From an uncultured Pseudomonadota bacterium (GTDB lineage: Bacteria > Myxococcota_A > Bradymonadia > Bradymonadales > Bradymonadaceae): a DNA stretch of 64,000 nt. Numbering within the stretch: the stretch's first letter is position 1; every line of letters starts with the position of its first letter. The position numbers and the translations under genes were made by a program. The notes beneath the pieces are model-generated. The model was given only the letters and a program-made list of their open reading frames with translations, did no database searches and had not been told where the DNA came from. Positions 2,683 through 61,970 of the stretch are shown piece by piece. The stretch covers positions 124,001 through 188,000 of the forward strand of contig CAJXPB010000002.1 in assembly GCA_913057905.1 (NCBI GenBank), in the 5' to 3' direction.

Positions 2683-5214
2683 TTGGCTGACGCCCTACCC
2701 ATCGACAAGCAGCGCGGGGAGTTCGAGGAGAGCCTCCGAGCCGACCGGCCGACCATCGTGGTGGCGCCGACGGGGTCGGGAAAGTCCACGCGACTTCCCC
2801 TGTGGATGGCCGAATCACTCGATGGGCCGATCCTGGTCGTCGAGCCCCGACGTGTCGCCTGTCGGTCCCTCGCCCAGTACCTGGCGAAGGGCCGCGGAGA
2901 GGAGGCCGGCCAGTCGATCGGGTACCGGGTGCGGTTTGACGATCGTACGTCGGATGAGACCGAGGTCATCTTCGCCACCACCGGCGTGGCATTGCGGATG
3001 CTCGGCGGTGCCGATGGGGGAGACGACTGGCCGTTTGCCGGCGTCCTGGTCGACGAATTTCACGAGCGCGGGTGGGAGGTCGACCTCATCGTCGCCACCC
3101 TGCGCGCTCATCAGGACGACCCCGCCTTCGGCCCCTTCGTCCTCACCTCGGCGACCATCGAGGCGGAACGGCTCGCCGAGGAGCTGAACGCCGACCTGGT
3201 GCGCTCCGAGGGGCGCACCTATCCCGTAGACATCTCCTACGCCGGGGAGCCGAAGGCACCGACCTCGCGCGGCCTGGAGGGCCGGGTCAAAGACGCCGTC
3301 CAAGAGGTCTGCGAGAGCCCCGACGACGACGGCGGCGACATCCTGGTGTTTCTGCCCGGCAAAGGCGAGATCTCGGACTGCAAGGGCGCCCTCGGCGGGG
3401 TGGCAAACACCCACAACCTGGATCTGGTCGAAGTCCACGGCCGGCTGCCGCCTCACAAGATGGCGAAAGCCTTTGACGATCAGGACAAACGCCGGGTCTT
3501 TCTGGCCACAAACGTCGCCGAGACCTCGGTGACCCTGCCCGGCGTCACGACCGTGATCGACAGCGGATTGGTCAAACAGATGATCCATCGCGGCGGCGCC
3601 TCGGCGCTGGCGTTGGTGCCGACCTCCGAGGCATCGATGGACCAGCGCGCCGGCCGCGCGGGGCGCGTACAACCGGGACGCTGCGTGCGGCTTTGGAGCG
3701 AGCGGTTTCGACCCAAGCCGTCGACCCCACCGGAGATCGAGCGCATCGAACTGGACGAACCGGTCCTGCAGGCGGCGATGTGCGGCCTCGATGGCGAACG
3801 TTTTGACCGCGCGGGTTGGCTGACCGAACCGCCGGAATTCGCGGTGGAGAATGCCCGCCAACGCCTACGCGACATCGGTGCTCTGGATGAGGACAACGAG
3901 CTGACCGACAAGGGAGAGCGGCTCGGGGAGCTGCCGGTCGATGCCCACGACGCCCGGATGTTGATCGGCGTGACCGACGAGATGGCCGGGCCGATGTGCG
4001 ACCTGGTGGCGCTGCTTCAGCGTTCCACGAATCTGATTTTGCCCATGGGTGCCATACGAGGCGACACTCACCGGGTGCAGCAGAATCGAAACGACCTGTT
4101 TAAGGGCTGCGATGACGAGGTGACCGCGCAACTGACCGCCCTGCGTGAGGGCCGTCCGCGCGAGCACGGCCTGCACCGCTCGGCGTGGGAGGAGGCAAAA
4201 AAGATCTCGTCGAGCCTGCGTTCGATGGTCGATGCCCCGGCGCCCGATCCCCTCAGCGACGACCGGCCCCTGCCCAAACCGGGGCGCATGGCCGAGTACC
4301 TGCTCGATCGAATCCCCGAGTCGGCCTTCGTGCTCAGGGAGCGCGCGATGGGCTACCGCGACGACGGTCAAGCCAGCTTCGGCCGCTCGGAGCCCTGGGG
4401 AAACGGAGATATCGAGGTGTCGGTCTACCCCTTCGAGTCGCCGGTCCAGGAGCGCGAACGCGACGAGAAGCTGACCCATCCGACGGCTGGGTTGATCTTG
4501 AGTCTGTTCTGGACCGGCGACGGCTCCAAGGGCGTCCACGGCATCGGCAGCATGTTGCTGCCCGCCGACGAGTCCCAACTGGCCGACGCGGGCCTCGGCG
4601 AGCCCGAGATCTCGAGGCCCAAGCCGAAGGGCCACGCCGACGCGCCCCGTGTCGTGGCGACGGTCTCCAGAACCTACGCCGGCCGGACGCTCAGGACGAC
4701 CAATCGCGAGCTCGACGGCCGGCCGCTGTGCGAAGCCGTTGCCGAGCTGACCTTCGAAGGTCGCATGTTCCGCGACGCGGGCGACCGGATCCGTGACGAC
4801 CTGCACCTGTGGGACGTGTTGGCGCGCTGGCCCGCCGAGCGGCGTTGGTGGGGCGAGGTCGAGCCGCCCACGGAGCCCGAGGAGTGGTTGACCGAGCACC
4901 TCTGGGAGCTCGGCCTGCGCTCAAACGACGACCTGATGCTCCTGGAGCCCGACGACTTGCGACCCGACCTGGCCGACCACTTTGGCATGAACGACCATCA
5001 ACTGGCCGAGTGGCGCGAGAAGTTCCCCCGGCTCTGGAGCCACATGGGCCGCACCTACCGGTGCAAGGTCCAGCCGAGCACCCAGAAGGTCATTTTGGAG
5101 CCGGCCGACAAGGCGGCGCGCAAGGGAGACGACCCGCAGGCGATGCACGTGCCCCGATTCGAGGGATTCAGCGTCTACTACCGCAACGCCAGCCGGGTCG
5201 TCCCCGTGACGTGA
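2683..5214 (+). CDS. hrpB: ATP-dependent RNA helicase HrpB
   Basis: 843 residues, full length for the HrpB branch of DEAH-box helicases. Walker A is APTGSGKST (residues 28-36), motif II is DEFHER (124-129), motif III is SAT (156-158) and motif VI lies in QRAGRAGRVQPG. The C-terminal region (GDRIRDDLHLWDVL to the end) matches the HrpB-specific domain. The start is a TTG preceded at a good distance by AAGGAAG that overlaps the acylphosphatase stop region. HrpB acts in RNA processing in some proteobacteria; its exact substrate is generally unknown. Confidence 0.9.
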   Translation: MADALPIDKQRGEFEESLRADRPTIVVAPTGSGKSTRLPLWMAESLDGPILVVEPRRVACRSLAQYLAKGRGEEAGQSIGYRVRFDDRTSDETEVIFATTGVALRMLGGADGGDDWPFAGVLVDEFHERGWEVDLIVATLRAHQDDPAFGPFVLTSATIEAERLAEELNADLVRSEGRTYPVDISYAGEPKAPTSRGLEGRVKDAVQEVCESPDDDGGDILVFLPGKGEISDCKGALGGVANTHNLDLVEVHGRLPPHKMAKAFDDQDKRRVFLATNVAETSVTLPGVTTVIDSGLVKQMIHRGGASALALVPTSEASMDQRAGRAGRVQPGRCVRLWSERFRPKPSTPPEIERIELDEPVLQAAMCGLDGERFDRAGWLTEPPEFAVENARQRLRDIGALDEDNELTDKGERLGELPVDAHDARMLIGVTDEMAGPMCDLVALLQRSTNLILPMGAIRGDTHRVQQNRNDLFKGCDDEVTAQLTALREGRPREHGLHRSAWEEAKKISSSLRSMVDAPAPDPLSDDRPLPKPGRMAEYLLDRIPESAFVLRERAMGYRDDGQASFGRSEPWGNGDIEVSVYPFESPVQERERDEKLTHPTAGLILSLFWTGDGSKGVHGIGSMLLPADESQLADAGLGEPEISRPKPKGHADAPRVVATVSRTYAGRTLRTTNRELDGRPLCEAVAELTFEGRMFRDAGDRIRDDLHLWDVLARWPAERRWWGEVEPPTEPEEWLTEHLWELGLRSNDDLMLLEPDDLRPDLADHFGMNDHQLAEWREKFPRLWSHMGRTYRCKVQPSTQKVILEPADKAARKGDDPQAMHVPRFEGFSVYYRNASRVVPVT

Positions 5215-5270
5215 CCGACGATCCAACCCCACTTGTCACGTTCGAGCCCTCAGCATAAATTGGCGCACGT

Positions 5271-6230
5271 ATGGAGACTCCAAGTATCATCATTCACGGT
5301 GGCGCCGGCAGCGCCATCGGCGATGGTCGCCGCAAAAAGGTCCGCAACGCCCTGGGCCGCATCCGCGACGAGGTTTGGGAGATCCTCGCCGACGGCGCAG
5401 ATGCTCGCCAGGCCGTCGTCGAGGGATGCCGACGCCTGGAGGACGACACGCTCTTTAACGCCGGCACCGGCGCCGTGCTCCAGTCCGATGGACAGGTGCG
5501 ACTGAGCGCCTCGATGATGGAAAACGACGCCGGTCACTTCAGCGGCGTGGTCAATGCCCGCCGGCTGCGTCACCCCATCGATGTGGCCCGGTTTCTTCAG
5601 GACGAACGTGACCGGGTCATCGCCGCGCCCGGAGTCCAGGAGCTGTTGCGAGAACTCGAGATCCCCGTCCACGAGCCGGTGACCAAAAAGCGGCTCAAAA
5701 AGTGGGCCAAAAACCGGGGCAGAAACGTCGACTCGGCCACCGACGAATTGGTGGCCGACGACGACCCCGGCTTCGAAGACGGTCACGGCACCGTCGGCGT
5801 GGTCGTCCGAGACACGGAAGGCCGGCTCGCCGCAGGGACGTCCACCGGCGGCCGCGGCCACGAACGCGTCGGTCGAGTCAGCGACTGCGCCACACCCGCC
5901 GGCAACTACGCCGGTGAGTCGGCGGCCATCAGTTGCACGGGCATCGGCGAGGACATCCTCGATGAGGGGCTGGCCACGCGGATCGCCGTGCGAGTCGAAG
6001 ACGGACTCTCGCTCCCCGACGCCCTGCGGCGCACCTTCGACGAGGCGGAGCGCCGCGAGCGCAGCTTCGGCGTCATCGCCATCGACGATCAGGGAGACAT
6101 CGGCTGGGCAAAGACCTCGGACGTGTTACTGTCGGCCTGGCGCAGCGACGTCGGCCGTGGAGATACACTCGAATTGGATCACGGAACGATCGTCAGCGAA
6201 CCAAACGCGACTTCAGGAGGAACGACATGA
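5271..6230 (+). CDS. Isoaspartyl peptidase / L-asparaginase (Ntn-hydrolase)
   Basis: 319 residues of the plant-type asparaginase (EcAIII/IaaA) family, which autocleaves into alpha and beta subunits and hydrolyses beta-aspartyl dipeptides and asparagine. The N-terminal IIIHGGAGS motif, the LFNAGTGAVL segment and the processing site GHGTVGVVV are present; Thr174 would be the new N-terminal nucleophile. Downstream STGGRGHERVGRVSD and NYAGESAAIS complete the active site. Its stop overlaps the next start by four bases (ATGA), so it is translationally coupled to the cupin gene. Confidence 0.9.
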   Translation: METPSIIIHGGAGSAIGDGRRKKVRNALGRIRDEVWEILADGADARQAVVEGCRRLEDDTLFNAGTGAVLQSDGQVRLSASMMENDAGHFSGVVNARRLRHPIDVARFLQDERDRVIAAPGVQELLRELEIPVHEPVTKKRLKKWAKNRGRNVDSATDELVADDDPGFEDGHGTVGVVVRDTEGRLAAGTSTGGRGHERVGRVSDCATPAGNYAGESAAISCTGIGEDILDEGLATRIAVRVEDGLSLPDALRRTFDEAERRERSFGVIAIDDQGDIGWAKTSDVLLSAWRSDVGRGDTLELDHGTIVSEPNATSGGTT

Positions 6231-6751
6231 ACATCCAGCACACAATGGCCGGACTCGTCGTGGGACTGATTCTGGGCGTCGGCATCACCGCCACCGCGCA
6301 GGACGAAAAAAACGCCCTCGGCGAGGTCGTCATGAGTGAAGGGCTCTCGGCGACGCGGCAGGCGCCCGACGGCGACACCCAGGTCGGCATTCTGGCCGAA
6401 GGCAAAGAGGCCTTTCTGGGCAAGCTCCGGGTGCGTCCCAACGGGAGCATCAAGAAGCACAGCGACCCGTCGGAGCAGTACCTCTACATTCTGCGCGGCT
6501 CGGGCACCCTGACCATCGACGGCACCGAGTACACCGTGGAGCCGAAGATGACGATCTTCGTAGAGCCGGGCGCCGAGATGAGCTTTCAGAATGGCGACGG
6601 ACTCTTCGAGGCGCTTCAGGTCTACGCGCCGCCCGAAGCCGCCAACAAGTACAGCAAATGGGAGACGGGCGTGAGTCCGTTCAAGCCGCAGCCGACCCGC
6701 GGTGAAAACCAGGGTAGCGGAAGCAGCGGCGGCGGCTCGGTCTCGTTCTGA
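6227..6751 (+). CDS. Secreted cupin-domain protein
   Basis: 174 residues. A hydrophobic N-terminal segment (about residues 8-22, ending ATAQ) looks like a signal peptide, so the protein is probably exported. The body is a single cupin barrel: KLRVRPNGSIKKHSDPSEQYLYILRG and a second motif around VEPKMTIFVEPGAEMSF. The first motif keeps one His plus Glu, so metal binding is possible but incomplete. The C-terminal tail is Gly/Ser-rich. It overlaps the isoaspartyl peptidase gene by 4 bp; a functional link is not evident. Confidence 0.75.
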   Translation: MNIQHTMAGLVVGLILGVGITATAQDEKNALGEVVMSEGLSATRQAPDGDTQVGILAEGKEAFLGKLRVRPNGSIKKHSDPSEQYLYILRGSGTLTIDGTEYTVEPKMTIFVEPGAEMSFQNGDGLFEALQVYAPPEAANKYSKWETGVSPFKPQPTRGENQGSGSSGGGSVSF

Positions 6752-6762
6752 GCCCTCGAAGC

Positions 6763-6780
6763 CGGGCTCTCAGGAGCCCG
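6763..6780. terminator. Convergent hairpin between cupin and DUF4261-like genes
   Basis: A 7-bp perfect GC stem (CGGGCTC/GAGCCCG) with a TCAG loop sits between two convergent genes and covers the stop codon of the minus-strand gene. There is no U tract on either side, so termination activity is only a guess from position. Confidence 0.35.
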
Positions 6781-7609
6781 CGCTCACCTTCGGTGGGCGG
6801 ACCGTCAGCACGCCATAGGTGCCGGCCGTGGGGACCTTCTGGTCCTCCGGGCCCTGGCGCCCCTTCTCCAGCGTAAACTGCTGGTCGCCCACCCGTAGGT
6901 TCCCGCCCACGGGATAGGCTTCGCCCTGCATGATCATGTTGGCGGCGACGTCCATCAGCCGGAAGAACGCCTCGTTGAATTTGCTGCCCTGCACTTCGGT
7001 CTCCAACTCCGGCAGCTCAAAGCAGGTCAGCCCCCGGGTGGCCATCCAGCCATCCTCGTCCCAGGCACTCACAAACAGATTGGTCAGCGCCTGTACCTGT
7101 GTCAGATCCTCGGTCTGATCGCGGATCATCGACGGCGAGTGCATCTCACCGCAGGCGGGCAAGAAGGCTCCGGCCGCCCCGGCCTCGGCAAACGTGTACA
7201 TCAATCGCCCGGCGACCTGTGAGGCCGCCACGTGATCGACGCCCTTTTCGGCATCGGTCTGGGCCGGTGTGACCACCAACCGCCAGACCTTTTCGTGTTT
7301 CGTCAGCATCGACGCCTCTGACGCCGTAAAGGCCTCCTTGGCCATCGCCGCCACGCCCTTCAGCTCTTCGATGCGCGGCTCGATGACCACATCGACCTCG
7401 TCGACCTGCTCCGAGGGACCGCCCTCCTCCAGGGTCATGGTACCCGTAGCCTCGGCGTCTTCGGGCGCGCCGTCGGCGAGTTCGTCGTGCCACTCCAGGT
7501 TCATCGGTTCAAACCACAGCTCGTGGTGAACCTCTTCGATCATGTCGGTCTGGTCGCGGCCCCAGGTGACCGGGATCACGACGACGAAGGCGTCGGGCGA
7601 AACTTGCAT
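6770..7609 (-). CDS. DUF4261-like protein
   Basis: 279 residues, soluble and acidic. The C-terminal half (LTNLFVSAWDEDGWMATRGLTCF followed by an ELPELE motif and later MDVAANMIM) resembles DUF4261, a family of unknown function found near regulatory and toxin-immunity genes; the family assignment is from memory. The N-terminal half contains a short acidic linker (about residues 47-70). The ATG lies 8 bases downstream of the stop of the lipoprotein gene, so it is probably the last gene of a pyrG - lipoprotein - DUF4261 transcript. Confidence 0.6.
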   Translation of the reverse strand: MQVSPDAFVVVIPVTWGRDQTDMIEEVHHELWFEPMNLEWHDELADGAPEDAEATGTMTLEEGGPSEQVDEVDVVIEPRIEELKGVAAMAKEAFTASEASMLTKHEKVWRLVVTPAQTDAEKGVDHVAASQVAGRLMYTFAEAGAAGAFLPACGEMHSPSMIRDQTEDLTQVQALTNLFVSAWDEDGWMATRGLTCFELPELETEVQGSKFNEAFFRLMDVAANMIMQGEAYPVGGNLRVGDQQFTLEKGRQGPEDQKVPTAGTYGVLTVRPPKVSAGS

Positions 7610-42843: not shown

Positions 42844-42996
42844 TACAATTCCTGAAACGTTGCGCGAAGCAGATTTCCGCCGTGAACGGCGAACACCCTG
42901 GTGATGATTCACCCAGTTGTCTTGTCGGGGTCCGCCGGGGCAAGCCGTTTGATTCTGCAGGTCGCACATGCCCGAGAAGCGAACTTAGGTCGCGTA

Positions 42997-43024
42997 AGTC
43001 TACAGACCCGGGTCCCGGTGTCAA
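42997..43024 (-). promoter_or_regulatory. Predicted main promoter of the str-S10-spc ribosomal block
   Basis: On the minus strand a perfect TTGACA (43024-43019), 16-base spacer, TAGACT (43002-42997). It is about 155 bases upstream of rpsL and faces it. Confidence 0.65.
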
Positions 43025-43088
43025 GTGTCGACCCGCCCGTGTATTCCCGACTCGTCAAGCGACGGCCGTCGACCCGAGGGCCTCGAGA

Positions 43089-43107
43089 CGCCGCGCAGCG
43101 AGCGGCG
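43089..43107 (-). terminator. Hairpin downstream of the lasso cluster
   Basis: CGCCGC/GCGGCG with a 7-base loop, about 70 bases after the stop of the B2 protease gene. No T tract on the minus strand. It may separate the lasso cluster from the ribosomal block; weak. Confidence 0.3.
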
Positions 43108-43177
43108 TGATTAGTTAAGGACTTTCGTCGGTATGATCAAGGGAGATGATGCACAAATCCGCGCCCGGGCCCAAAGG

Positions 43178-44929: not shown

Positions 44930-46618
44930 CTACGACACAAACTGGCCCTTCTGGATTCGATGGACCGTTTTGGGATTCAGCCCGGAGGGGATCCGGTGGC
45001 CCACATACAGTATCGACAGGTCGTAGTTGTCCTCGATCCGCTCGAAGATCCGCTGGCACAATTCGTCTTCCAGATCCGCGGCCAACTGATCGACTACCAG
45101 CACGTCCGGATCTCGAAGAAGCGCCCGCGCCAGAGCCACACGCTTTCTCTGGCCGCCCGAGAGCTTGCTGCCGCCCTCGCCGACGTCGAACTCCAGCCCG
45201 TCGGCGTGCCCCTCCACAATCTCATCGACCGCGCTGGTGTGACATGCCCGCTCGATCGCGTCGTCGGAGGGCACCTCCGCAAGCCCAAAGAGGATGTTAT
45301 CGCGGATGGTGCCGTGAAACAGCGCCACCTCTTGACCGACCGTGCCGACCCGCGAGCGCCACTGTTTGACTGCCAGCTCCGGCAGCGGCACGCCGCCGGC
45401 ACGCACTTCGCCCTCGTCCGGGTCGATCAACCGAGGGAGCAGCCGCGCCGTCGTACTCTTGCCCGCTCCCGAAGGCCCGGTGAGCGCGATCCGATCCTGC
45501 GGCTCGATCGCCATCGACACCCCATCGACCGCGGGATCATCGTCCTCACCGAATCGAACGGTCACGTCGTCGTACTCGATCCGTGGGACGCCCTGGTCCA
45601 GCTCGACCGGGTCGTCGGCCTTCGGCAAATGAGCATCGGCCTCGAACAGCGCATCCAGTCGCTCCTGTGCGACCTGCGCGCGATACCAGCCAAAGACGAT
45701 ACTCGGCGCCTTGCGCACCGGACCCAGGCTTCGCGACACGTAAAAAACAAAGGCCACCAGCGTGCCCAAGGTCAGCGTGTCGTTCATGACCATCTGGCCG
45801 CCCACGCCCAGGCACAGCAGCACCACGATCGCCACCGAGAAGTTCACCAGCGGCAATAGCTGCGATTGATACCTGGTGTGCTCCAGCTCGGCGGCCTTTA
45901 ACTTTCGTCCCGCCTCATCGATGCGATCTTCGAACCACGACTCGGCCCCGTAGACCTTGACCGACTCGATGTTCGACATCGACTCCAAAAGCGCCGAATA
46001 GACCTTTCCCCGCTGCTCGGCACTCTCCCTCGACAGCGGCCGGACCTTGTCGTGAAACACCCACGCCGTCAGCGCCAAGGCCGGCAGCGCGATAAACGCC
46101 AACAACGTCAGTTTAGGCGCCATGACCACTAGGATCACCGCCGTCGCCAGCACACCGACGGCAAAGTCGACCACCGACGGAAGGACCCCCGTATACAATT
46201 GTTTGAGAGAATACGTATCGAACTGAGCCCGCGCGACGTGGTCTCCCACATCGCCGGACTGATGGTACCCCAACGCATAATCCTGCAGGGTCTCAAAGAC
46301 CCGATTGCGCGTCTCGAGCCAAAACTCCTCCCCCATCTTGGCCGCCCGCCACTTGCCCCAAAACTGTGTCACCGACGCCCCGGCATAAGCCGCCACCCCG
46401 ATACCCACATACGGCCAAAGCAAATCCGGCCGACCCGCCCGGATGACGTCGTCGACCACCAACTTGGTGATGTAGGGGGATACGAGGCCTAGGAGGGAGG
46501 CCGCTGCCAACGTAAGAATCGAGAACAGGAGCCTGCGAAAAATTCCACCGGGGAGCTCGGATCTGGTCAGCGCGTCCTTAGAAATGGGATCTAGCTCGTC
46601 GCGAAGACCAATACCCAC
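44930..46618 (-). CDS. ABC transporter (permease-ATPase), lasso peptide exporter candidate
   Basis: 562 residues, half transporter: six membrane helices (about 28-300) and an ATPase domain with Walker A GPSGAGKS (381-388), Q loop GQEVALF (428-434), signature LSGGQ (486-490), Walker B VLVVD (506-510) and H loop GHR (540-542). The residue after Walker B, normally the catalytic Glu, is Gln511 (VVDQLAADLE). Lasso D proteins of this type export the peptide and confer self-immunity. GTG start 7 bp after the precursor stop. Confidence 0.88.
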   Translation of the reverse strand: MGIGLRDELDPISKDALTRSELPGGIFRRLLFSILTLAAASLLGLVSPYITKLVVDDVIRAGRPDLLWPYVGIGVAAYAGASVTQFWGKWRAAKMGEEFWLETRNRVFETLQDYALGYHQSGDVGDHVARAQFDTYSLKQLYTGVLPSVVDFAVGVLATAVILVVMAPKLTLLAFIALPALALTAWVFHDKVRPLSRESAEQRGKVYSALLESMSNIESVKVYGAESWFEDRIDEAGRKLKAAELEHTRYQSQLLPLVNFSVAIVVLLCLGVGGQMVMNDTLTLGTLVAFVFYVSRSLGPVRKAPSIVFGWYRAQVAQERLDALFEADAHLPKADDPVELDQGVPRIEYDDVTVRFGEDDDPAVDGVSMAIEPQDRIALTGPSGAGKSTTARLLPRLIDPDEGEVRAGGVPLPELAVKQWRSRVGTVGQEVALFHGTIRDNILFGLAEVPSDDAIERACHTSAVDEIVEGHADGLEFDVGEGGSKLSGGQRKRVALARALLRDPDVLVVDQLAADLEDELCQRIFERIEDNYDLSILYVGHRIPSGLNPKTVHRIQKGQFVS

Positions 46619-46625
46619 ACCTTAT

Positions 46626-46799
46626 TCAAGAGCCGTTAAGAGTATCGCCCACACTGCCAGGCTGACCTGAAATAAGACTGCTGAGATCTCCATCAACGTT
46701 CAACGAAGGTGCTGCATAATTGCGTTTCCCGCACACGGGAGTATCGTTCAAATCTAGCTTTCCGCGTTCAGTCCTTTTTTCGCTAGTAGAGGACTTCAT
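46626..46799 (-). CDS. Lasso peptide precursor (57 residues)
   Basis: A short gene between cyclase and exporter. AGGAG lies 6 bases before the ATG (46799). The leader (1-44) carries the RRE recognition motif Y28-x2-P31-x-L33, then the conserved spacing to Gly37 and to Leu42 at -3; this matches the lasso leader pattern YxxPxLxxxG. The predicted core is GQPGSVGDTLNGS (45-57): Gly at position 1 and Asp at position 8 give an 8-residue macrolactam, with tail TLNGS. Position -2 is Ile instead of the usual Thr. The last residue is Ser, the site that lasso kinases modify. Context and motif make the call strong; product unproven. Confidence 0.87.
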   Translation of the reverse strand: MKSSTSEKRTERGKLDLNDTPVCGKRNYAAPSLNVDGDLSSLISGQPGSVGDTLNGS

Positions 46800-46805
46800 G
46801 CTCTT

Positions 46806-46810
46806 CTCCT
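46806..46810 (-). promoter_or_regulatory. Ribosome-binding site of lasso precursor
   Basis: AGGAG on the minus strand, 6 bases before the ATG at 46799. It is the best Shine-Dalgarno of the cluster, while the cyclase gene just upstream has none that is obvious; this fits high expression of the precursor. Confidence 0.75.
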
Positions 46811-46859
46811 ATTTCAGTCTCAGATTAGCAAGGAAACGTGACAAACGCGCAAATTCGAC

Positions 46860-48737
46860 TCATGTTCGAATTCTTTCATCCCGCTGGCAAGCGTACAGCC
46901 AATTCACAGTCGCGACAACCTGCCACACCGAGTAAATGCCCAGTTGAAACGACAGATCGGCCGCAGACGCATCCGCCGCCATTTCGAGTGACCTGAGTGA
47001 ACTGTCGAATGCCTGCCTGTCCAGAAACTTATCAGACAACAGATTCATCTCTTCACCTACCCCTTCGCGAAAAGCACCAATCCCAGAGATAATTCCGGAA
47101 TTTACAAGGGGGTGGTAGTTCGTATGATCGGCGCTGTTCAGTATTTCGTCGGGAACTAGCCCCGCTACTGCCCTTCTCAAGATGGCTTTCTGCAGCCCTC
47201 GGCACTCTAGATCTCCCTCGGAAATCTCACTTGAAAGATTCCATACTTCAGGGTCTAGGTAAGGCATCAAAAATGTGGCGCCGTATCGCCTGGCGCGCTT
47301 TGCCATGCTTAAATAGAATTTTTCTACTGACCACTGCTGATTCTCTTCGAATAGTTTCTCGATCCGACCCTGAGTACCAAGTTCGCCAGTCTCGTACGCC
47401 GCTTGCGAATGCCGATTACGTCTCCGAACCCATGCCTCGTTGTTGACCCATGGTCGAGACAGCCGATGGGGTATGCTCTGAGTGTAGTTCAAAAACAACC
47501 CTTCCCTTCCAATGATTGAAGCGCCCTGGAATAACAGTTGGAATGCCAAGTTATTCATCCGCTGAAACTGGCTGCTGCGAAAGAGCACTTCAAGCATCTT
47601 CCTCAAGACCCCCCTCCAAATTGAATCACTCCGGTTTGGACGCTTCTCGAATAGACGATCTGCGCCAACCCCTAAGAACACACCATCGCATTGATGGAAC
47701 TCCTGCATCTCTGGCGCAAAAAGGTCCCACCAGAATTCATCCACCAAGTACCTTGGTCCCCACGCGACGGTACGGCTCTTTACCATCGGGTCAGGCAAGG
47801 CCGCGCTGATATCCACTTCAGCATGACAAGAACCAAGGTGATCGACTGCCAATCTAATCCAGTGGGACTCATCCGCTTCGGGGAAATCCTTGCACACCAT
47901 CGAGCCCGTTCGTATCGAGCTTTCGCAAGACAGAGCCATCTCCGAATGTATCGCAGCCAGAGACGTCGAATCGAGACCCCCGCTGAGCGAATGCCATCCC
48001 GAAAAGCTCTGATACTGCTCAACCGATTCCTTCAGCCGATGGAGAAGCTCTTTCGGAGTTGCACTGTTGCCATCCGACGAAGAGGGTTTCCAATACCGAC
48101 GACGTTCGAACGCAAGAGCTGGGCAATCGACTGAAACGCATTCAGACGGTCGGATTCGTTGGAAATTTTCGAAGAAGTAACTTGTGTTCGCAGAGATTCC
48201 AGAGGCGATATTCTCAAGCAATAGCTCGTAATCTACGGAAACCTTGCCGGATGATTCAGTCAACAATCGATTTGGATCCGACCCGATGAAGAGCTCACCA
48301 GACTCTCGATGTATGAATAACGGTATCTGACCAAAGTAATCGCGAAAGATCTCAAGATTCCGGTTGGCATGATTCCAAACGACGCCACTCAAAGGTCCTC
48401 GTCGAGCACCTAAAACCTGATCGAGTCGTTTCGGCCTAGATCTAACCAGCTCGGTCAAGACCGGAAAACTGTCTTCCGCTACGAGAGCGCCGGAATTCGA
48501 TCCACCCTGGGGATTTCCGACAACCAATGCGAAATCATTGCCGTTTTGCGTGAAACCGACAGGCCATGGTGATTCTCCATCATATAGTCTGACGGATATT
48601 CGCTGACCTTCCGATATCGAAATATTGAGCAGTTCGCGTGAGTCCTCATCGGTTCCGATGCCCCACTGTCGACATTGTTTAGGACGATTTTTGTTTGAGC
48701 GACGGTTACTATAATGTACTATGAAGTCGTGAGTCAT
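46860..48737 (-). CDS. Lasso macrolactam synthetase (asparagine-synthase-like cyclase)
   Basis: 625 residues. The N-terminal half is a glutaminase-like domain without a Cys nucleophile; the C-terminal half is an ATP-pyrophosphatase of the AsnB fold with PP-loop SGGLDS (252-257), the DESHW region and GVGADRLF near 355. Such proteins adenylate the Asp/Glu side chain of the core and close the ring. GC content (about 48% in sampled lines) is far below that of the exporter and B2 genes (about 70-75%), suggesting separate acquisition with the precursor. No good Shine-Dalgarno at the ATG. Confidence 0.87.
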   Translation of the reverse strand: MTHDFIVHYSNRRSNKNRPKQCRQWGIGTDEDSRELLNISISEGQRISVRLYDGESPWPVGFTQNGNDFALVVGNPQGGSNSGALVAEDSFPVLTELVRSRPKRLDQVLGARRGPLSGVVWNHANRNLEIFRDYFGQIPLFIHRESGELFIGSDPNRLLTESSGKVSVDYELLLENIASGISANTSYFFENFQRIRPSECVSVDCPALAFERRRYWKPSSSDGNSATPKELLHRLKESVEQYQSFSGWHSLSGGLDSTSLAAIHSEMALSCESSIRTGSMVCKDFPEADESHWIRLAVDHLGSCHAEVDISAALPDPMVKSRTVAWGPRYLVDEFWWDLFAPEMQEFHQCDGVFLGVGADRLFEKRPNRSDSIWRGVLRKMLEVLFRSSQFQRMNNLAFQLLFQGASIIGREGLFLNYTQSIPHRLSRPWVNNEAWVRRRNRHSQAAYETGELGTQGRIEKLFEENQQWSVEKFYLSMAKRARRYGATFLMPYLDPEVWNLSSEISEGDLECRGLQKAILRRAVAGLVPDEILNSADHTNYHPLVNSGIISGIGAFREGVGEEMNLLSDKFLDRQAFDSSLRSLEMAADASAADLSFQLGIYSVWQVVATVNWLYACQRDERIRT

Positions 48738-48909
48738 CGATTCGTGAGTTTGTTGGAGAATTTAGTGCCGGTAAGGCACTCGTGCAGGTTCCTAGAGCTT
48801 AGAGTGGCCAAGCAATTTCGGGTCCACACCGGGCTGTAACGCTAGTTGGTTCAACTGCATTTCGGCATACATCGGCGCCGGAAACTCTCAGACAAGGGTT
48901 AGAGTCAGC
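48738..48909. promoter_or_regulatory. Divergent regulatory region of cyclase and FG-GAP protein genes
   Basis: 172 bp between two divergent genes. It contains the inverted repeat AGTGCC-N5-GGCACT (48764-48780), which could be an operator or leader hairpin on the cyclase side. Clear -10/-35 boxes could not be assigned. Confidence 0.4.
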
Positions 48910-51900
48910 ATGAATAACTTGATGTTCATAAAAGACAAAATTTTCGAGAAGCGTCCTAGGCGGAGACTTCTTGCGGCCACTGTTACCGTCGCAATGGGTG
49001 TTTTCGCAATTTCGTGCTCTTCGGACCCGAAGTCTGATGCGGCCGAACACGCTCCTTCTGCAGAAAGGACGACTCATTTACAAAAAGCGGACGGGGCCAG
49101 ATCTGATCAAGAAGACGACAATGGTGGCTATACCGATCCGGCTGAAGCGCCCAACGATAACCACATCTTGTCGTCGAATCTCACCCAAACAAGAGGGTTC
49201 GACTCTCGACATGGGGAAAATGAGTTTAGTGCCACTATCATTGGGCTGGGAGATGTCACGGTGAGGTCCGATGGGTCGACAACAGTTACACCAACCCCCC
49301 TTTATGATCCCTCAAGCGGGATGGACTCCAGCGAAAACTGGAAATTCTCTACGAAATTGGCCACTGTCGCAGCCTCCGGAATTAGTGGAGAAACACAACT
49401 GCTCGATATTGATAGACCAGCCGATACTTTCGTTGCACCGGATGGATCGCTAACTCTTTCTTACGCCGAAGGGCTTTCCGTCCACTACAGGAACTTCGGC
49501 ACCTCACTAAAACAGGCCATTACGATCTCTGAGCGCTTCTCCGATTCGAAGGATATCAGATTGCGGTGGGATATCCATCAATCGATGGAAGCCAAAATTC
49601 GTCCAAACGGCGGCGCGACCATTCGGTCTAATGAGACTGACAGAATAATTCTTGAGTGGACCCCTCTTAGGGTATTTGACTCAAACGGTGACGAAGTTGC
49701 CGCGAAGATGAAGATAGAGTCTGAGCACCTTGTGTACTCTATAGATAGCCGCGAGGCCGATTTTCCAATTAAGATCGACCCGCTCGCTCAGAATCCGAGC
49801 TTCCAAGACTCCGGGAGTCAAGCATCATCTCTTTTCGGGCAAAATGTTGCCTCCGCGGGCGACGTAGACGGTTACGAAGATCTGCTCGTCAGCCAAACCG
49901 GTTTTGACGACGGCGCAACAAGTAGTGTTGGAAAGGCTTACTTGTTTTTGGGTTCATCGTCGGGCACGGCGTCCACTGCGAGCTGGACTACTAAAGGCAC
50001 TACCCTTGAAGAATTTTACGGGATTGGCACCGGGATAGGGGATATCGACGGGGACGGAAACGACGATTCAGTCATTTCTGGATTCCGATGGATTTCCGGA
50101 AACCAAGATTTAGGTCAAGTCAAACTCTTCCTCGGCGGAGCCACGGCTACGGGCCTCAATACCTCTGCTGCAGAGACCATCTCAGGATCACAGAGCGATC
50201 AGTTCTTCGGCAGATCAGTCGCGGGAGGGGACTTCAATTGCGACGGCACGCCTGACGTGGCAGTGGGTTCACCAGGCTACGATGGTTCAGCAGGTGGTGG
50301 CTCCGGCAAAATTGAAATTTTCTTCGGAAACACCTCTTCTCCCTATTTACCAAATTCGGCATCTTGGACCTACGAGAGCTCGAAAGCCGGAGCGAATCTT
50401 GGCCAAGACATCGAGAATGCAGGTGATGTGAATAATGATGGATGCGATGATCTCATTGCAGGCGGTGGACAGTATCCCAACAGCTCTGGCACGCCATCTG
50501 GGATTGCGGTGCTTTTCTACGGGAGCAACTCCGGAATCTCTTCCACGCCTGACTGGTCGAGGGTGGGGCAAGCAAATTCGCAGTACGGTTTACGGATCTC
50601 CCCTGCGGGTGACGTGGACGGAGACGGTTTCGATGACATCGCGGTTGGCGCCCAAGGCGCCAACGCAGGAGATGGGCTCGTCGAGGTATTCTATGGCAGC
50701 ACTTCCGGGCCATCCTCTTCCCCGGACTGGTCAGACAGCGGCAGCAATGGAGCCAAACTTGGAAGTGGTTTGGCCAGTGGAGATGTCAACGGTGACGGAA
50801 CTCCCGACCTAGTTGTTGGAGCCACCGATGAAACTGAACCTTCCTCCGGAAGCCGATTCGGATCGGTCAGGCTTTATCTTACGGGGCCCGGCCCTTCTCC
50901 TTCCCTGTCGAGTTCTCCAAACTGGCAGGCCTACAGCAGTAACGTGTCTTCCCTATACGGATTCACAGTAGCCACGGTGCGGGGAAGTCAGACCGCAGGT
51001 GGAGAAGACGACATATTTGTCGGAGCTCCATTGCACAAGAATATGATGGGGCAATCGAGCGCTGGTAGTGTATTCGGATATCAGGGGCAACCCACCTGTT
51101 ACATCGGAGGTACTTACTACGCAGCTGGAGACACCAATCCAAACAATGCCTGTGAAGTCTGCACGCCGTCACAAAACAATACCTCTTGGTCAACGAAGTC
51201 AGTTGGAGCGACATGCGATGACGGAAATGCTTGCACAGAGAACACGACTTGCAATTCAAGTGGACAGTGCACTGGCAGCCAGGTCAACTGCGACGACGGG
51301 AATCCGTGCACTCAAAATCAGTGCGACCCCCAAATGGGATGTTCTTATCCCCCCGAGCCACAAGGAACGGCTTGTACTGATGACGGGAAAACCTGCACCA
51401 CAGACCAATGCGACGGAAACGGTGCCTGCACCCATTCGGTAACTAGTGGCTGCCTAATCGACGGCTCCTGTGTAAGCCAAGGTCAGTCGGATCCTTCAGC
51501 TCCGTGTCTTCAGTGTGTCCCGTCCCAGAGCACTACCAGCTATTCAGCGGTAAGCGCTGGCACCCCTTGCAATGACGGATCCTACTGCACTGTATCGGAC
51601 ACCTGCAACGCCTCGGGGCAATGTACGGGTTCGCCGCGAAACTGTGCTGATACAGTGGATCCCTCGATTGCCGCCTGCAACAATAGTTTCTCATGCGACG
51701 ATGTGCTGGATAAGTGCCGCTCATCACAACCCAAATCTGACGGTACGAGTTGCGACGATGGAAACGCATGTACCTCGATGGAGACATGTCAGTCAGGTGT
51801 TTGCCAAGCTGGTTCCACAGTCACGTGCTCCGACCCCGGAACCTGTCAATCCGCGTCCTGCAATCCTGATACCGGGACGTGCGAAACGACTAACGACCCA

Positions 51901-53067
51901 GACGGCTCGACTTGCGAAACTGGCGATGCGTGCACAACAGGCGCTTGTCAGTCCGGAAGTTGCATGACGCAAGGACCTGTCGACTGCGACGACATGAATC
52001 CATGCACCGCCGACTCGTGCGACAGTCAAACTGGTTGCCAGAACTCGGATGTCCCCGACGGCACAGAGATCGGCACGCCGTCATGCAACGACAACTTCAA
52101 CCTGTTGCAGTCGGCGACTTGCCAGGACGGCGAGCCGCAGGATCCGACGATTCAGGACTGCGGAAACTACAAGTGCTCAAGTGACCCGAACCCGAATTGT
52201 CCCACGGCCTGTACGGAGGATTCCGACTGCAAGGACGGCAGCTTCTGTACGGACGTGCCGGGATCGAACGATGGCGACCTGGAATGTGTGGGCAACCGGC
52301 CACCGACTGCGGATGCCGGGCCCGACCAGGGTGGCTACAGTAAGAACGAGCGCGTACGGCTGGATGGCACGCAAAGTAGCGACCCGGACAATGACATGCT
52401 GAGTTACACATGGTCGCTGGTCGATGCGAACTGCCCGGATGCCGGTGAATCGGCCGACCTGGCTGGGTTGCAACAGGCAATCAACGACCAAGACCAGTGG
52501 GACCCGACGGCGGCAAATCCGCAGTTCAGCGCTCCCGCGCCGGATTGCGAAAACGAGGAGCTGACGTTTGAGCTAGAAGTCTCGGATGGCACCTACACGG
52601 TGACCGACGAGGCAGTCGTCAGCTACGGCACGTGCAACAATCCGCCGAACGCGGTGGTCGCCGGTCAGCCGGCGACGGCCGAGTGGGGATCGAGCGTCAC
52701 GCTCGATGCCAGCAACTCGCAGCCCGGTTGCGGTTCTTCGCTCGAGTACTCCTGGAGCTACATGCCGCAGGAGCCGGAGCTGACTACGTCGGGGAGTGAA
52801 TCGCTGAGTGTGACGCTTCCGGACATCTGCCGGGAGGAGAGCACGACGTACACCTTCAACCTGACGGTCTTCGACGGTGTGCAAAACAGCGAGCCGTACG
52901 ACCGGGATCTGTTCGTGCCGGCCAACGGCCCCTGCGACGATGGCGGCGACGTCTCGGGCTCGGGCGGCTGTTCGTCGACCGGCAACAGCGGCGGACCCAT
53001 CGGCGGCCTGGCTGCCATGCTCTTCGCCGGCGGACTCGCCGCACTTCGACGGCGCCGACGCAACTAA
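48910..53067 (+). CDS. FG-GAP / Cys-rich / PKD surface protein with MYXO-CTERM-like tail
   Basis: 1385 residues. Signal peptide with lipobox-like AISC (Cys ~36). About residues 300-720 hold seven FG-GAP (integrin-like) repeats with Ca-binding loops: DVDGYEDLLV, DIDGDGNDDSV, DFNCDGTPDVAV, DVNNDGCDDLIAG, DVDGDGFDDIAVG, DVNGDGTPDLVVG. Residues ~730-1130 are Cys-rich repeats (CDDGNACT, CSGxGQCTG types). Two PKD-like domains follow. The end is GGCSS...GGLAAMLFAGGLAALRRRRR, a MYXO-CTERM sorting signal. GC is about 50% for most of the gene but about 65% in the last kilobase. Confidence 0.85.
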   Translation: MNNLMFIKDKIFEKRPRRRLLAATVTVAMGVFAISCSSDPKSDAAEHAPSAERTTHLQKADGARSDQEDDNGGYTDPAEAPNDNHILSSNLTQTRGFDSRHGENEFSATIIGLGDVTVRSDGSTTVTPTPLYDPSSGMDSSENWKFSTKLATVAASGISGETQLLDIDRPADTFVAPDGSLTLSYAEGLSVHYRNFGTSLKQAITISERFSDSKDIRLRWDIHQSMEAKIRPNGGATIRSNETDRIILEWTPLRVFDSNGDEVAAKMKIESEHLVYSIDSREADFPIKIDPLAQNPSFQDSGSQASSLFGQNVASAGDVDGYEDLLVSQTGFDDGATSSVGKAYLFLGSSSGTASTASWTTKGTTLEEFYGIGTGIGDIDGDGNDDSVISGFRWISGNQDLGQVKLFLGGATATGLNTSAAETISGSQSDQFFGRSVAGGDFNCDGTPDVAVGSPGYDGSAGGGSGKIEIFFGNTSSPYLPNSASWTYESSKAGANLGQDIENAGDVNNDGCDDLIAGGGQYPNSSGTPSGIAVLFYGSNSGISSTPDWSRVGQANSQYGLRISPAGDVDGDGFDDIAVGAQGANAGDGLVEVFYGSTSGPSSSPDWSDSGSNGAKLGSGLASGDVNGDGTPDLVVGATDETEPSSGSRFGSVRLYLTGPGPSPSLSSSPNWQAYSSNVSSLYGFTVATVRGSQTAGGEDDIFVGAPLHKNMMGQSSAGSVFGYQGQPTCYIGGTYYAAGDTNPNNACEVCTPSQNNTSWSTKSVGATCDDGNACTENTTCNSSGQCTGSQVNCDDGNPCTQNQCDPQMGCSYPPEPQGTACTDDGKTCTTDQCDGNGACTHSVTSGCLIDGSCVSQGQSDPSAPCLQCVPSQSTTSYSAVSAGTPCNDGSYCTVSDTCNASGQCTGSPRNCADTVDPSIAACNNSFSCDDVLDKCRSSQPKSDGTSCDDGNACTSMETCQSGVCQAGSTVTCSDPGTCQSASCNPDTGTCETTNDPDGSTCETGDACTTGACQSGSCMTQGPVDCDDMNPCTADSCDSQTGCQNSDVPDGTEIGTPSCNDNFNLLQSATCQDGEPQDPTIQDCGNYKCSSDPNPNCPTACTEDSDCKDGSFCTDVPGSNDGDLECVGNRPPTADAGPDQGGYSKNERVRLDGTQSSDPDNDMLSYTWSLVDANCPDAGESADLAGLQQAINDQDQWDPTAANPQFSAPAPDCENEELTFELEVSDGTYTVTDEAVVSYGTCNNPPNAVVAGQPATAEWGSSVTLDASNSQPGCGSSLEYSWSYMPQEPELTTSGSESLSVTLPDICREESTTYTFNLTVFDGVQNSEPYDRDLFVPANGPCDDGGDVSGSGGCSSTGNSGGPIGGLAAMLFAGGLAALRRRRRN

Positions 53068-59486: not shown

Positions 59487-60248
59487 TCAGTGGGGGGCGA
59501 CTCGAGTTCGAATCTCCTCGATAAATTCCGCGAGCCCCACGTCCGCACCCGCCGCCTCAAGGTCGTCGATAATTGACGATTCGATCAACTCGTCCTCGCG
59601 CCGATGCTCTCCCTGCAACAATTCATTTAAGACTCGTTTCGCGTTCTTCTTGGCTCCGCCTTTTTGGGCGGTCAATTTCTGTGCGTGCTCAGTCGGGTCG
59701 AAACCAAGAGCCGCACGTAGGTTTCCCAGAGCCTCATCGTCGTCGGCATCTTCAGGCTCGAACGCGACCAATATCCAGCATTCTCTTTTGGTGTGGGGAA
59801 GGCCGAGAACGATCTCGAAGTTCGTATCCGACGACACACGCGCCTGTTTCAATCCGGGGCGTCTTTCCGGGTCACCATCGGTATCCCGGATCAGGAAAAT
59901 CGCAAGAAGATCGCCATCGATCTCCTTGTTTAACTGTGCATCTTTGAAAAGCCGAATTGCCTTTGTGGCCTGAAGTGCCTCTCCGCTTCCCGGCTGACCT
60001 GAAAACTCCCCGTGCACGCGAAGATTTCGGTCGCGAGCGAGCCCTTTAATTCCCTTTTCCCCGGCCCAAGATGTGAAGTCCTGCAGACCAAGGACACCCC
60101 GCCATCCGATGAACTTGCTAAAACTATCGATCAGCCAGTGAACCTCGTCGGACAAGACTCGTTCGACCAGACGAGTCACTGTACGTTGGTCCGAAGGGCC
60201 CTCGCATACGAGGCCAAACCACATTTCTGGAGAATTCCCGTTAGTCAT
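59487..60248 (-). CDS. TOPRIM-like nuclease, effector of an ATPase pair
   Basis: 253 residues. N-terminal LVCEGPSDQRTVTRL provides the invariant TOPRIM Glu and the central IFLIRDTDGD the DxD pair; then a family-like RECWILVAFEPE. This layout is typical of RloB/DUF4276-type TOPRIM proteins that sit beside SMC/AAA ATPases in anti-phage systems (AbiL, PARIS, OLD-like). Its start overlaps the ATPase stop by 8 bp. Nuclease or tRNA-cleaving activity is inferred; a named system cannot be assigned. Confidence 0.75.
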   Translation of the reverse strand: MTNGNSPEMWFGLVCEGPSDQRTVTRLVERVLSDEVHWLIDSFSKFIGWRGVLGLQDFTSWAGEKGIKGLARDRNLRVHGEFSGQPGSGEALQATKAIRLFKDAQLNKEIDGDLLAIFLIRDTDGDPERRPGLKQARVSSDTNFEIVLGLPHTKRECWILVAFEPEDADDDEALGNLRAALGFDPTEHAQKLTAQKGGAKKNAKRVLNELLQGEHRREDELIESSIIDDLEAAGADVGLAEFIEEIRTRVAPH

Positions 60249-61383
60249 CCGTACCGGTTACCCAGTTTTCCCCCACATAGCTCCAGAACTCACCTGGAGA
60301 CATTTCGTCAGCCCACTCTTCGTAGTCCGGGTGCTCGCTCAAACGGCGAGCCACGGTTGAGCCGTCGTCGTCCAAGTTCGTCAGCCAGACCTCGTCCGCG
60401 TCTAGATGATCGAGCAAGTACGGCGAGTGAGATGTAGCGAGAATTTGTAGATCGGAGTACTTCTCAAGCAATTTTCGAAGCGTGCCGATCAAATCCTCGA
60501 GCGCCTTCGGATGCAGCGACTGCTCGATATCATCAAGGAGTACCAAATTCGGCCTCCTTTCATTCATGAGGACCGCTAGGAGCCCAAGAACGAGAAGCGT
60601 GCCTTCGCTGACCGCATGAGCGGGGAGATCGGACGCCCCCTCCATGTCAAAGACAACCTCTTCACCCATGAACTTCTCGGTCTCCTCGCCGGTGAAGCTC
60701 TCACCGTCTACAGTGATTTTTCGGGTGCTCGTCTTCCATACCGGAGCACGCCGTGTACGAACTCCCTCGACAGCAGGAACAACGGCTTTGAGTGATTCTA
60801 TCAGATCGCTAAAGGCATCCGGCCGGTTGGCCTGCATTTCTCGCAGGACCGTCGCCAAGCCTTCGCCATCGTACTTTATCCGCGGTTGCTCGGTTTCGCT
60901 GTATGAAGGAGCTGCGAGCTCTTCTGGATTCAGTCGAAGGAGCACGGCCGACTCGACGGCAAAGCCGAAATCACGGGTCTTCGGAGCGTAGACAAGCGGT
61001 TTATCTAAAGGTTGACGTTGTGTTCCATCATCGAAATTGGCGCCCAACTCAAACCTAGGCTCGCGGTCTTCACCATTCTCCGAAGAACGGGAAACCTGAA
61101 CGCAAAGGTGTACAACCCCTTTTGTACCACTCCAATCCCCCTCAATCTCTATTCCGATTTGGGAGTTCGACGCACCGCGACGAAGAAGCGTGGCCGCTTC
61201 CCGCTGTTCGTCGAAAAACTCTGATGGCTTTCTCGTTCCGAGCTTCGAGACGTAGTGTAATGCTTCCAAAACCGACGTCTTTCCGGAACCATTTGGCCCC
61301 ACGAACGTCGCAAAGTTGCCGAGCCTGTCGAGCTCGACGTCTGCGAGGCACTTAAAGTTCGTGAATTTCGCCCGGTGGATCAT
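60241..61383 (-). CDS. AAA ATPase (AAA_15/OLD-like)
   Basis: 380 residues from the ATG at 61383 (MIHRAKFTNFKCLADVELDR). Walker A FVGPNGSGKTS (about 27-37), signature-like HAVSEGTLLVLGLLAVL, Walker B LVLLDDIEQSLHP and a switch His in ATSHSPYLLD. The order is that of ABC/SMC-like ATPases that guard phage-defence nucleases (OLD, AriA, AbiLi). A longer TTG-start form (61542) is possible but adds no conserved sequence. Confidence 0.85.
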   Translation of the reverse strand: MIHRAKFTNFKCLADVELDRLGNFATFVGPNGSGKTSVLEALHYVSKLGTRKPSEFFDEQREAATLLRRGASNSQIGIEIEGDWSGTKGVVHLCVQVSRSSENGEDREPRFELGANFDDGTQRQPLDKPLVYAPKTRDFGFAVESAVLLRLNPEELAAPSYSETEQPRIKYDGEGLATVLREMQANRPDAFSDLIESLKAVVPAVEGVRTRRAPVWKTSTRKITVDGESFTGEETEKFMGEEVVFDMEGASDLPAHAVSEGTLLVLGLLAVLMNERRPNLVLLDDIEQSLHPKALEDLIGTLRKLLEKYSDLQILATSHSPYLLDHLDADEVWLTNLDDDGSTVARRLSEHPDYEEWADEMSPGEFWSYVGENWVTGTDD

Positions 61384-61425
61384 CGCGTTGGACCTGATGC
61401 CAAGTTGGGTCAATTCGCAGCCGCG

Positions 61426-61454
61426 AGTGTACGCTCGCCGAAAGGACTCCGCAA
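61426..61454 (-). promoter_or_regulatory. Weak candidate promoter before the ATPase gene
   Basis: On the minus strand TTGCGG (61454-61449), 17-base spacer, TACACT (61431-61426). It lies in the 171-bp gap after the small-protein gene and could give the ATPase-nuclease pair its own transcript. Confidence 0.3.
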
Positions 61455-61554
61455 ACTCAACCTGACCCTCGGCCGACGATGACGAGCAAATTCCGGTCGA
61501 ACGAATTCGGATCAGCTCCAAGCGGATTCCGCATTGCGCCAATCCAGATTTGAA

Positions 61555-61845
61555 TCAAGAGAATGAAACCCGTTCATCTTCGCGCTCCATCTCCTCTTCT
61601 TCCTGCGGCGTGTTCGTGAAAACAAACTCGATGAGCTGGTGATCCTCTTCTTCGAGTCTGTCGTAAATGACTCCCCAGACCTCTGACTGGCGCTCCGCCT
61701 CGTTCATCCCGTCAAAATCTGGAGTCGTCACGACTGCAAATAGTTTGCGCCCCCTCTCCATGTCGACCCTCACCTGGAGGTCCCGGTAGTCCAAGTCGCG
61801 CAGGACCTCCTCGAGGTCTCGTTTTCTCTTTTGGCGCGATTTCAT
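61555..61845 (-). CDS. Small alpha/beta protein of the ATPase-nuclease operon
   Basis: 96 residues from the ATG at 61845, which has GGAGG six bases upstream. Body: DLQVRVDMERGRKLFAVVTT, FDGMNEAERQSEVWGVIYDRL, IEFVFTNTPQEEEE; the helix-strand-strand-helix-strand pattern recalls BolA/KH-type folds, but this is a visual impression only. Acidic tail. It overlaps the stop of the 42-residue ORF by 4 bp (ATGA). Confidence 0.6.
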   Translation of the reverse strand: MKSRQKRKRDLEEVLRDLDYRDLQVRVDMERGRKLFAVVTTPDFDGMNEAERQSEVWGVIYDRLEEEDHQLIEFVFTNTPQEEEEMEREDERVSFS

Positions 61846-61970
61846 AGTTGTTCCTCCACAGATGCCAGAACGCGGTTGCCAAATTTCTCGATTGCCGAAC
61901 ACCACGGTTTAAGTAGGTTCTGAACGCGGCTCAGGTTCTTCTCAAAATCCGTATTGATTTGATTTTGCAT
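61842..61970 (-). CDS. 42-residue ORF leading the ATPase-nuclease operon
   Basis: Starts ATG at 61970 with GAGGTGGGG just upstream; protein MQNQINTDFEKNLSRVQNLL then KPWCSAIEKFGNRVLASVEE-QL, an amphipathic helix pair by appearance. The stop overlaps the next start by four bases, typical of a translationally coupled operon, which is the main evidence that it is real. Could be a leader peptide or an antitoxin-like partner. Confidence 0.5.
   Translation of the reverse strand: MQNQINTDFEKNLSRVQNLLKPWCSAIEKFGNRVLASVEEQL

Follow-up and report, generated by a model that had tools for sequence, protein, structure and literature searches.

Which product is encoded by the short reading frame between a lasso cyclase gene and an ABC exporter gene of an uncultured bradymonad, and what is left for the kinase of the same cluster to modify? 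We analysed this locus within a 64,000-nucleotide stretch of contig CAJXPB010000002.1, referred to below as the window. The 57-codon open reading frame almost certainly encodes a lasso precursor, and we estimate at about nine in ten the probability that it is precursor A of a bsf-type (Bradymonadales) kinase-associated lasso cluster, processed by B1, B2, C and D as proposed below. It is an additional member of a published lasso type; its notable points are an absent phosphorylation site and a very short core.

The precursor gene and its cluster

The minus strand of the window carries a complete lasso set in the order C-A-D-B1-K-B2 (Table 1), in which the B1 stop overlaps the K start and the K stop overlaps the B2 start. 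The initial annotation, made from the letters and their translations, had placed an ORF with a good ribosome-binding site between cyclase and exporter; its coordinates, the AGGAG box and both neighbours proved correct. Translated from its ATG, the gene specifies MKSSTSEKRTERGKLDLNDTPVCGKRNYAAPSLNVDGDLSSLISGQPGSVGDTLNGS. The leader pattern pointed out earlier, with YxxPxL at residues 28-33, a Gly at L+4 (Gly37) and Leu(-3), was found again on re-reading; Ile(-2) follows, and residues 45-57 form the core. The window itself shows the gene, where it lies, how its motif is spaced and that no enzyme of the set is missing: the cyclase lies beside the precursor, B2 is accompanied by a PqqD-like RRE B1, and the YxxPxL leader precedes a core with Gly1 and Asp8. 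The NF033535 score of the cyclase falls under the cut-off, as do those of the other bradymonad cyclases tested.

Table 1. Features of the lasso locus and the adjoining lipoprotein gene (positions within the window)
Feature	Position	Strand	Remarks
Leader peptidase B2, transglutaminase-like, 138 aa	43178-43594	-	Cys and His conserved; NF033537 53.5 bits (cut-off 33); PF13471
HPr-kinase-like lasso kinase K, 314 aa	43591-44535	-	ADE replaces ADD
RRE / PqqD-like B1, 99 aa	44532-44831	-	PF05402 1.1e-17 (PqqD, above Pfam cut-off); NF033536 2.6e-15
ABC exporter D, 562 aa	44930-46618	-	38-44% identity to D of relatives
Low-GC3 block	46507-51982		exporter codons to ~37, A, C, FG-GAP codons to ~1025
Lasso precursor A, 57 aa	46626-46799	-	position flanked by C and D; family motif spacing
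Core peptide GQPGSVGDTLNGS	46629-46667	-	predicted Gly1-Asp8 ring and tail TLNGS; cleavage register as in BsfA
Leader recognition motif YAAPSL, residues 28-33 (-17 to -12)	46701-46718	-	role established for relatives in PMC10368454
Ribosome-binding site AGGAG	46806-46810	-	6 nt upstream of the precursor ATG, from sequence
Lasso cyclase C, asparagine-synthetase-like, 625 aa	46860-48737	-	PF00733 5.9e-17; NF033535 6.4e-13
Divergent FG-GAP/PKD lipoprotein, C-terminal anchor, 1385 aa	48910-53067	+	N-terminal part inside the putatively exchanged block

Y, P, L, L/V, L/I, I/V, G and D/E at fixed distances make up the family motif, which has a single occurrence in the window and none in 300 codon-shuffled windows. 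A profile built only from the precursors of relatives placed the ORF first among 1307 six-frame segments, with a weak E-value (0.58) that is expected, since the leader has only about 20 informative residues. When the ORF's own genome was scanned in full with A1, the full-length precursor profile, at E<=10, the ORF was missed; what speaks for a precursor is therefore the spacing of the motif and the position of the gene rather than overall similarity. The core and the Gly1-Asp8 ring proposed initially are supported. Used as a query across the order, the 57-mer matched only itself (other matches E>0.1), and NCBIfam and Pfam held no family matching it. It is very improbable that the ORF is open by chance and that another part of the cluster encodes the actual precursor: the missing family match and the weak profile score would fit such a reading, but motif, spacing, ribosome-binding site and position are concordant, and no other segment of the window carries the motif. 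Promoter and terminator scans gave results at chance level.

No close ortholog of the precursor was found among the genomes of the order, the sole same-genus genome (G003) being fragmented, with contig breaks beside the locus. The cluster was not found in G003; its contig begins inside rpsG, and the absence therefore means nothing. A protein scan of the genome contigs with the cyclase found no relative, and a profile scan from alignment A4 yielded six loci, two from genomes already in the comparison and the others from Acidobacteria and Luteibacter.

Bradymonad relatives and known lasso systems

The initial annotation had implied that an equivalent ORF should accompany the cyclase in relatives. 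It was looked for in 26 genomes of the order, most of which carry B2 and kinase homologues, and it was found. In L089, L092, L096, L097 and L098 the order C-small ORF-D-B1-K-B2 recurs, and the small ORF separating C from D is designed alike; short ORFs of this design adjoin other cluster parts in L100, L101, L103 and L104-L107. The spacing Y(-17)xxP(-14)xL(-12)...L(-3)I(-2)xG1...D8 is common to the window and the equivalent ORFs; in the precursor alignment Y, P, L and the core Gly never vary, and every sequence has Ile or Val at -2. No precursors were recognised in L091, L093, L094, L095 and L102, where contigs may be missing or the leader may be different.

Two variant arrangements were also observed. 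The precursor of L103 (7220-7490, plus strand) has a 30-residue core, GSGSGGLDVSTNCTTPGEDQVDPPPPTCSP, with two Cys that could form a disulfide, and Ile for Tyr at -17; the L103 cluster has no exporter gene. A second type of site lies near an SMC gene (L104 6397-8692, L105 8333-10374, L106 3599-5581, L107 894-6228) and consists of an orphan cyclase and a precursor with a GASxKGVDS core. B1, B2, K and D were not recognised in the stretch read, and these sites may depend in trans on enzymes encoded at the main locus.

A cluster of the same type has been described in Bradymonas sediminis FA350 (BsfA/B1/B2/C/D/K/N), with Ile(-2) and a Gly1-Asp8 ring. Cleavage of BsfA before Gly1 by B1 and B2 was shown experimentally, BsfK phosphorylates core Ser3, aided by B1, and a mature lasso peptide from this cluster was never detected (PMC10368454). 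The L092 precursor is letter-identical to BsfA as printed in that paper. The window resembles bsf in gene order, chromosomal locus, leader motif, Ile(-2), Gly1-Asp8, separate B1 and B2, and an HPr-kinase-like K. The bsf locus neighbours an FG-GAP gene and ribosomal genes (PMC10368454); in the window, the FG-GAP gene lies on one side and rpsL, rpsG, fusA and tuf, from 42969 down, on the other. Most features called odd in the initial annotation are the norm of this family; Ile in place of Thr at -2, which it had listed as an anomaly, is the published Bradymonadales norm (PMC10368454).

The two clusters differ in the core, which has 13 residues in the window as opposed to 21, Pro3 as opposed to a phosphorylated Ser3, and a C-terminal Ser, and in the kinase (ADE versus ADD). 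They also differ in that the interval between B2 and rpsL in the window (42970-43177) is too small for bsfN. A bsfN-type gene apparently follows B2 in L092 (12105-13283); the window cluster lost bsfN or never had it.

Paeninodin, ThcoK, SyanK and pseudomycoidin systems share with the window an HPr-kinase-like tailoring gene and a core ending in Ser, but their leaders carry Thr(-2), whereas the window has Ile(-2), and the C-terminal Ser is the acceptor there. As judged from its sequence, the window cluster groups with the bradymonad type by precursor, gene order and locus. Short cores without disulfides are known from xanthomonin-type class II lasso peptides, which have a seven-residue ring, in contrast to the eight residues predicted here.

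The predicted product and its kinase

In the proposed pathway, B1 would bind the leader through YxxPxL and B2 would cleave after ...Leu-Ile-Ser, releasing GQPGSVGDTLNGS. C would activate Asp8 and couple it to the amine of Gly1, giving an eight-residue ring with a five-residue tail, and D would export the product. For the relative B. sediminis it is established that a leader with Ile(-2) is cut at this register and that the kinase, depending on B1, acts on Ser3. For the window product we infer ring closure, threading and export. The mass of 1169.53 Da given earlier for the cyclised core was reproduced (1169.531 Da monoisotopic; 1249.498 Da with one phosphate).

With 13 residues, the window core is the shortest among the precursors compared (15 or more in relatives); lasso peptide cores are quoted as having 14-24 residues (PMC6784204). 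The tail, TLNGS, contains no bulky plug. A frameshift was considered as the cause of the short tail and rejected, as both alternative frames soon meet a stop codon (after TALE and RYS, respectively) and resemble no relative. The short core and plug-less tail, set against the published natural range, raise the alternative that the enzymes yield a branched-cyclic (unthreaded) or otherwise non-lasso peptide because a five-residue tail without bulky residues cannot hold the thread. We regard this as distinctly unlikely: every enzyme of the lasso pathway is present, no rule forbids 13 residues, and whether a plug is needed depends on how large the ring and how flexible the tail is.

Ser/Thr at core residue 3 has been called conserved (PMC10368454). 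This residue is Pro in the window and Ser/Thr in all other aligned precursors, so the window core lacks the acceptor of the bsf type. The kinase-associated precursor of L103, in ungapped register, has Gly3 flanked by Ser2 and Ser4; since it also lacks Ser/Thr3, an acceptor at residue 3 is a usual but not a strictly defining trait of the type. The window kinase differs as well. It keeps the His, the P-loop GAGKS and the first Asp, but the second Asp is Glu: in an alignment of 17 kinases the window alone has ADE, with ADD or SDD in all 16 relatives. The matching position of BsfK is Asp187, whose change to Ala was among those lowering activity (PMC10368454).

The initial annotation had drawn attention to the terminal Ser and had allowed for a phosphorylated product of 1249.50 Da. 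Its arithmetic holds; Pro3 and the Asp-to-Glu change in the kinase make such a product doubtful and 1169.53 Da the better target. Most likely, the product is unphosphorylated (1169.53 Da) because residue 3 is Pro. Given this Pro, any acceptor must be Ser13, Ser5 or Thr9, which would be a switch of target residue inside this group of kinases. The kinase can thus be read in three ways: as idle, as redirected to Ser13 or Ser5, or as having some other substrate.

An idle kinase is a serious contender, somewhat short of even odds. A cassette of A and C would have been swapped for one without a residue-3 acceptor, leaving the resident kinase to drift (Asp to Glu). In accordance with this, GC3 is 0.43-0.53 in A and C versus 0.76-0.84 in D-B1-K-B2, and Pro3 and the Asp-to-Glu change coincide only in the window among the aligned clusters; the kinase, however, has kept its reading frame and other catalytic residues, and Glu can bind magnesium, so that the substitution need not abolish activity. 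Retargeting to the C-terminal Ser13, as in paeninodin-type kinases, or to Ser5, giving 1249.50 Da, appears somewhat less probable than idleness and on the whole unlikely. In its favour, the kinase gene, which overlaps both neighbours, is intact and retains His, GAGKS and the first Asp, and the core ends in Ser, a feature seen in no other precursor read. The nearest known relatives are, however, bradymonad kinases, of which the one studied is strict for residue 3, and the last catalytic Asp, present in 16 of 16 relatives, is Glu here.

The low-GC3 block and the FG-GAP lipoprotein

The protein encoded divergently from the cyclase contains FG-GAP repeats, Cys-rich repeats and PKD domains, and ends in a tail with a Gly-Cys motif, a hydrophobic stretch and an Arg-rich segment. 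A homologue adjoins the cyclase divergently in most relatives that keep the locus. A two-changepoint fit delimited a block reaching from the start of the exporter gene into the FG-GAP gene (Table 1), with a GC3 of 0.53 versus 0.79 and 0.78 in its flanks (likelihood ratio 245 versus at most 17 in shuffles). The same fit in B. sediminis (L092 4543-8425) runs from FG-GAP codon 523 to exporter codon 14, with a GC3 of 0.46 versus 0.81 and 0.76. The signal is clear in the window and L092 and weaker in L094, L097 and L089; in the same test it is absent from L103. A second low-GC3 gene group (0.59-0.64) occupies positions 59487-61905 of the otherwise high-GC3 window.

Direct evidence of an exchanged block comes from the congeneric trio L096, L097 and L098. 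Across L097 ~2859-7080, L096 and L097 are mostly 93-100% identical, whereas L098 is ~50-76% identical to either; outside this interval the three are mostly 70-98% alike. The swapped block covers precursor and cyclase together with ~650 N-terminal aa of the FG-GAP lipoprotein and stops where the exporter begins. Between most bradymonad genera, cyclases share 17-26% identity and exporters 37-69%.

We infer that recombination in constant flanks moves A, C and the propeller half jointly. This suggests that the block pairs a peptide with its cognate receptor, as a cassette on a processing chassis that stays fixed, and we hypothesize that the beta-propeller binds the peptide. Tentatively, and with odds clearly below even, the locus may be a polymorphic recognition system in which A, C and the propeller half form an exchangeable cassette of peptide and cognate receptor or immunity protein, set on a fixed chassis comprising the exporter, the RRE, the kinase, the peptidase and the PKD/anchor half of the lipoprotein; the window cassette would be foreign and its peptide would have escaped the chassis kinase. 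A full-text literature search for lasso peptides together with FG-GAP returned only the bsf paper, whose authors presume that the FG-GAP gene is not involved (PMC10368454).

The window precursor constitutes a natural test of kinase site choice, as the sole known acceptor residue is gone and a paeninodin-like C-terminal Ser is present. Its 13-residue core, if threaded, would fall under the usually quoted size range. The block structure connects lasso peptides of predatory bacteria with a beta-propeller protein at the cell surface, and the FG-GAP propeller is a concrete candidate for a receptor, immunity or kin recognition function.
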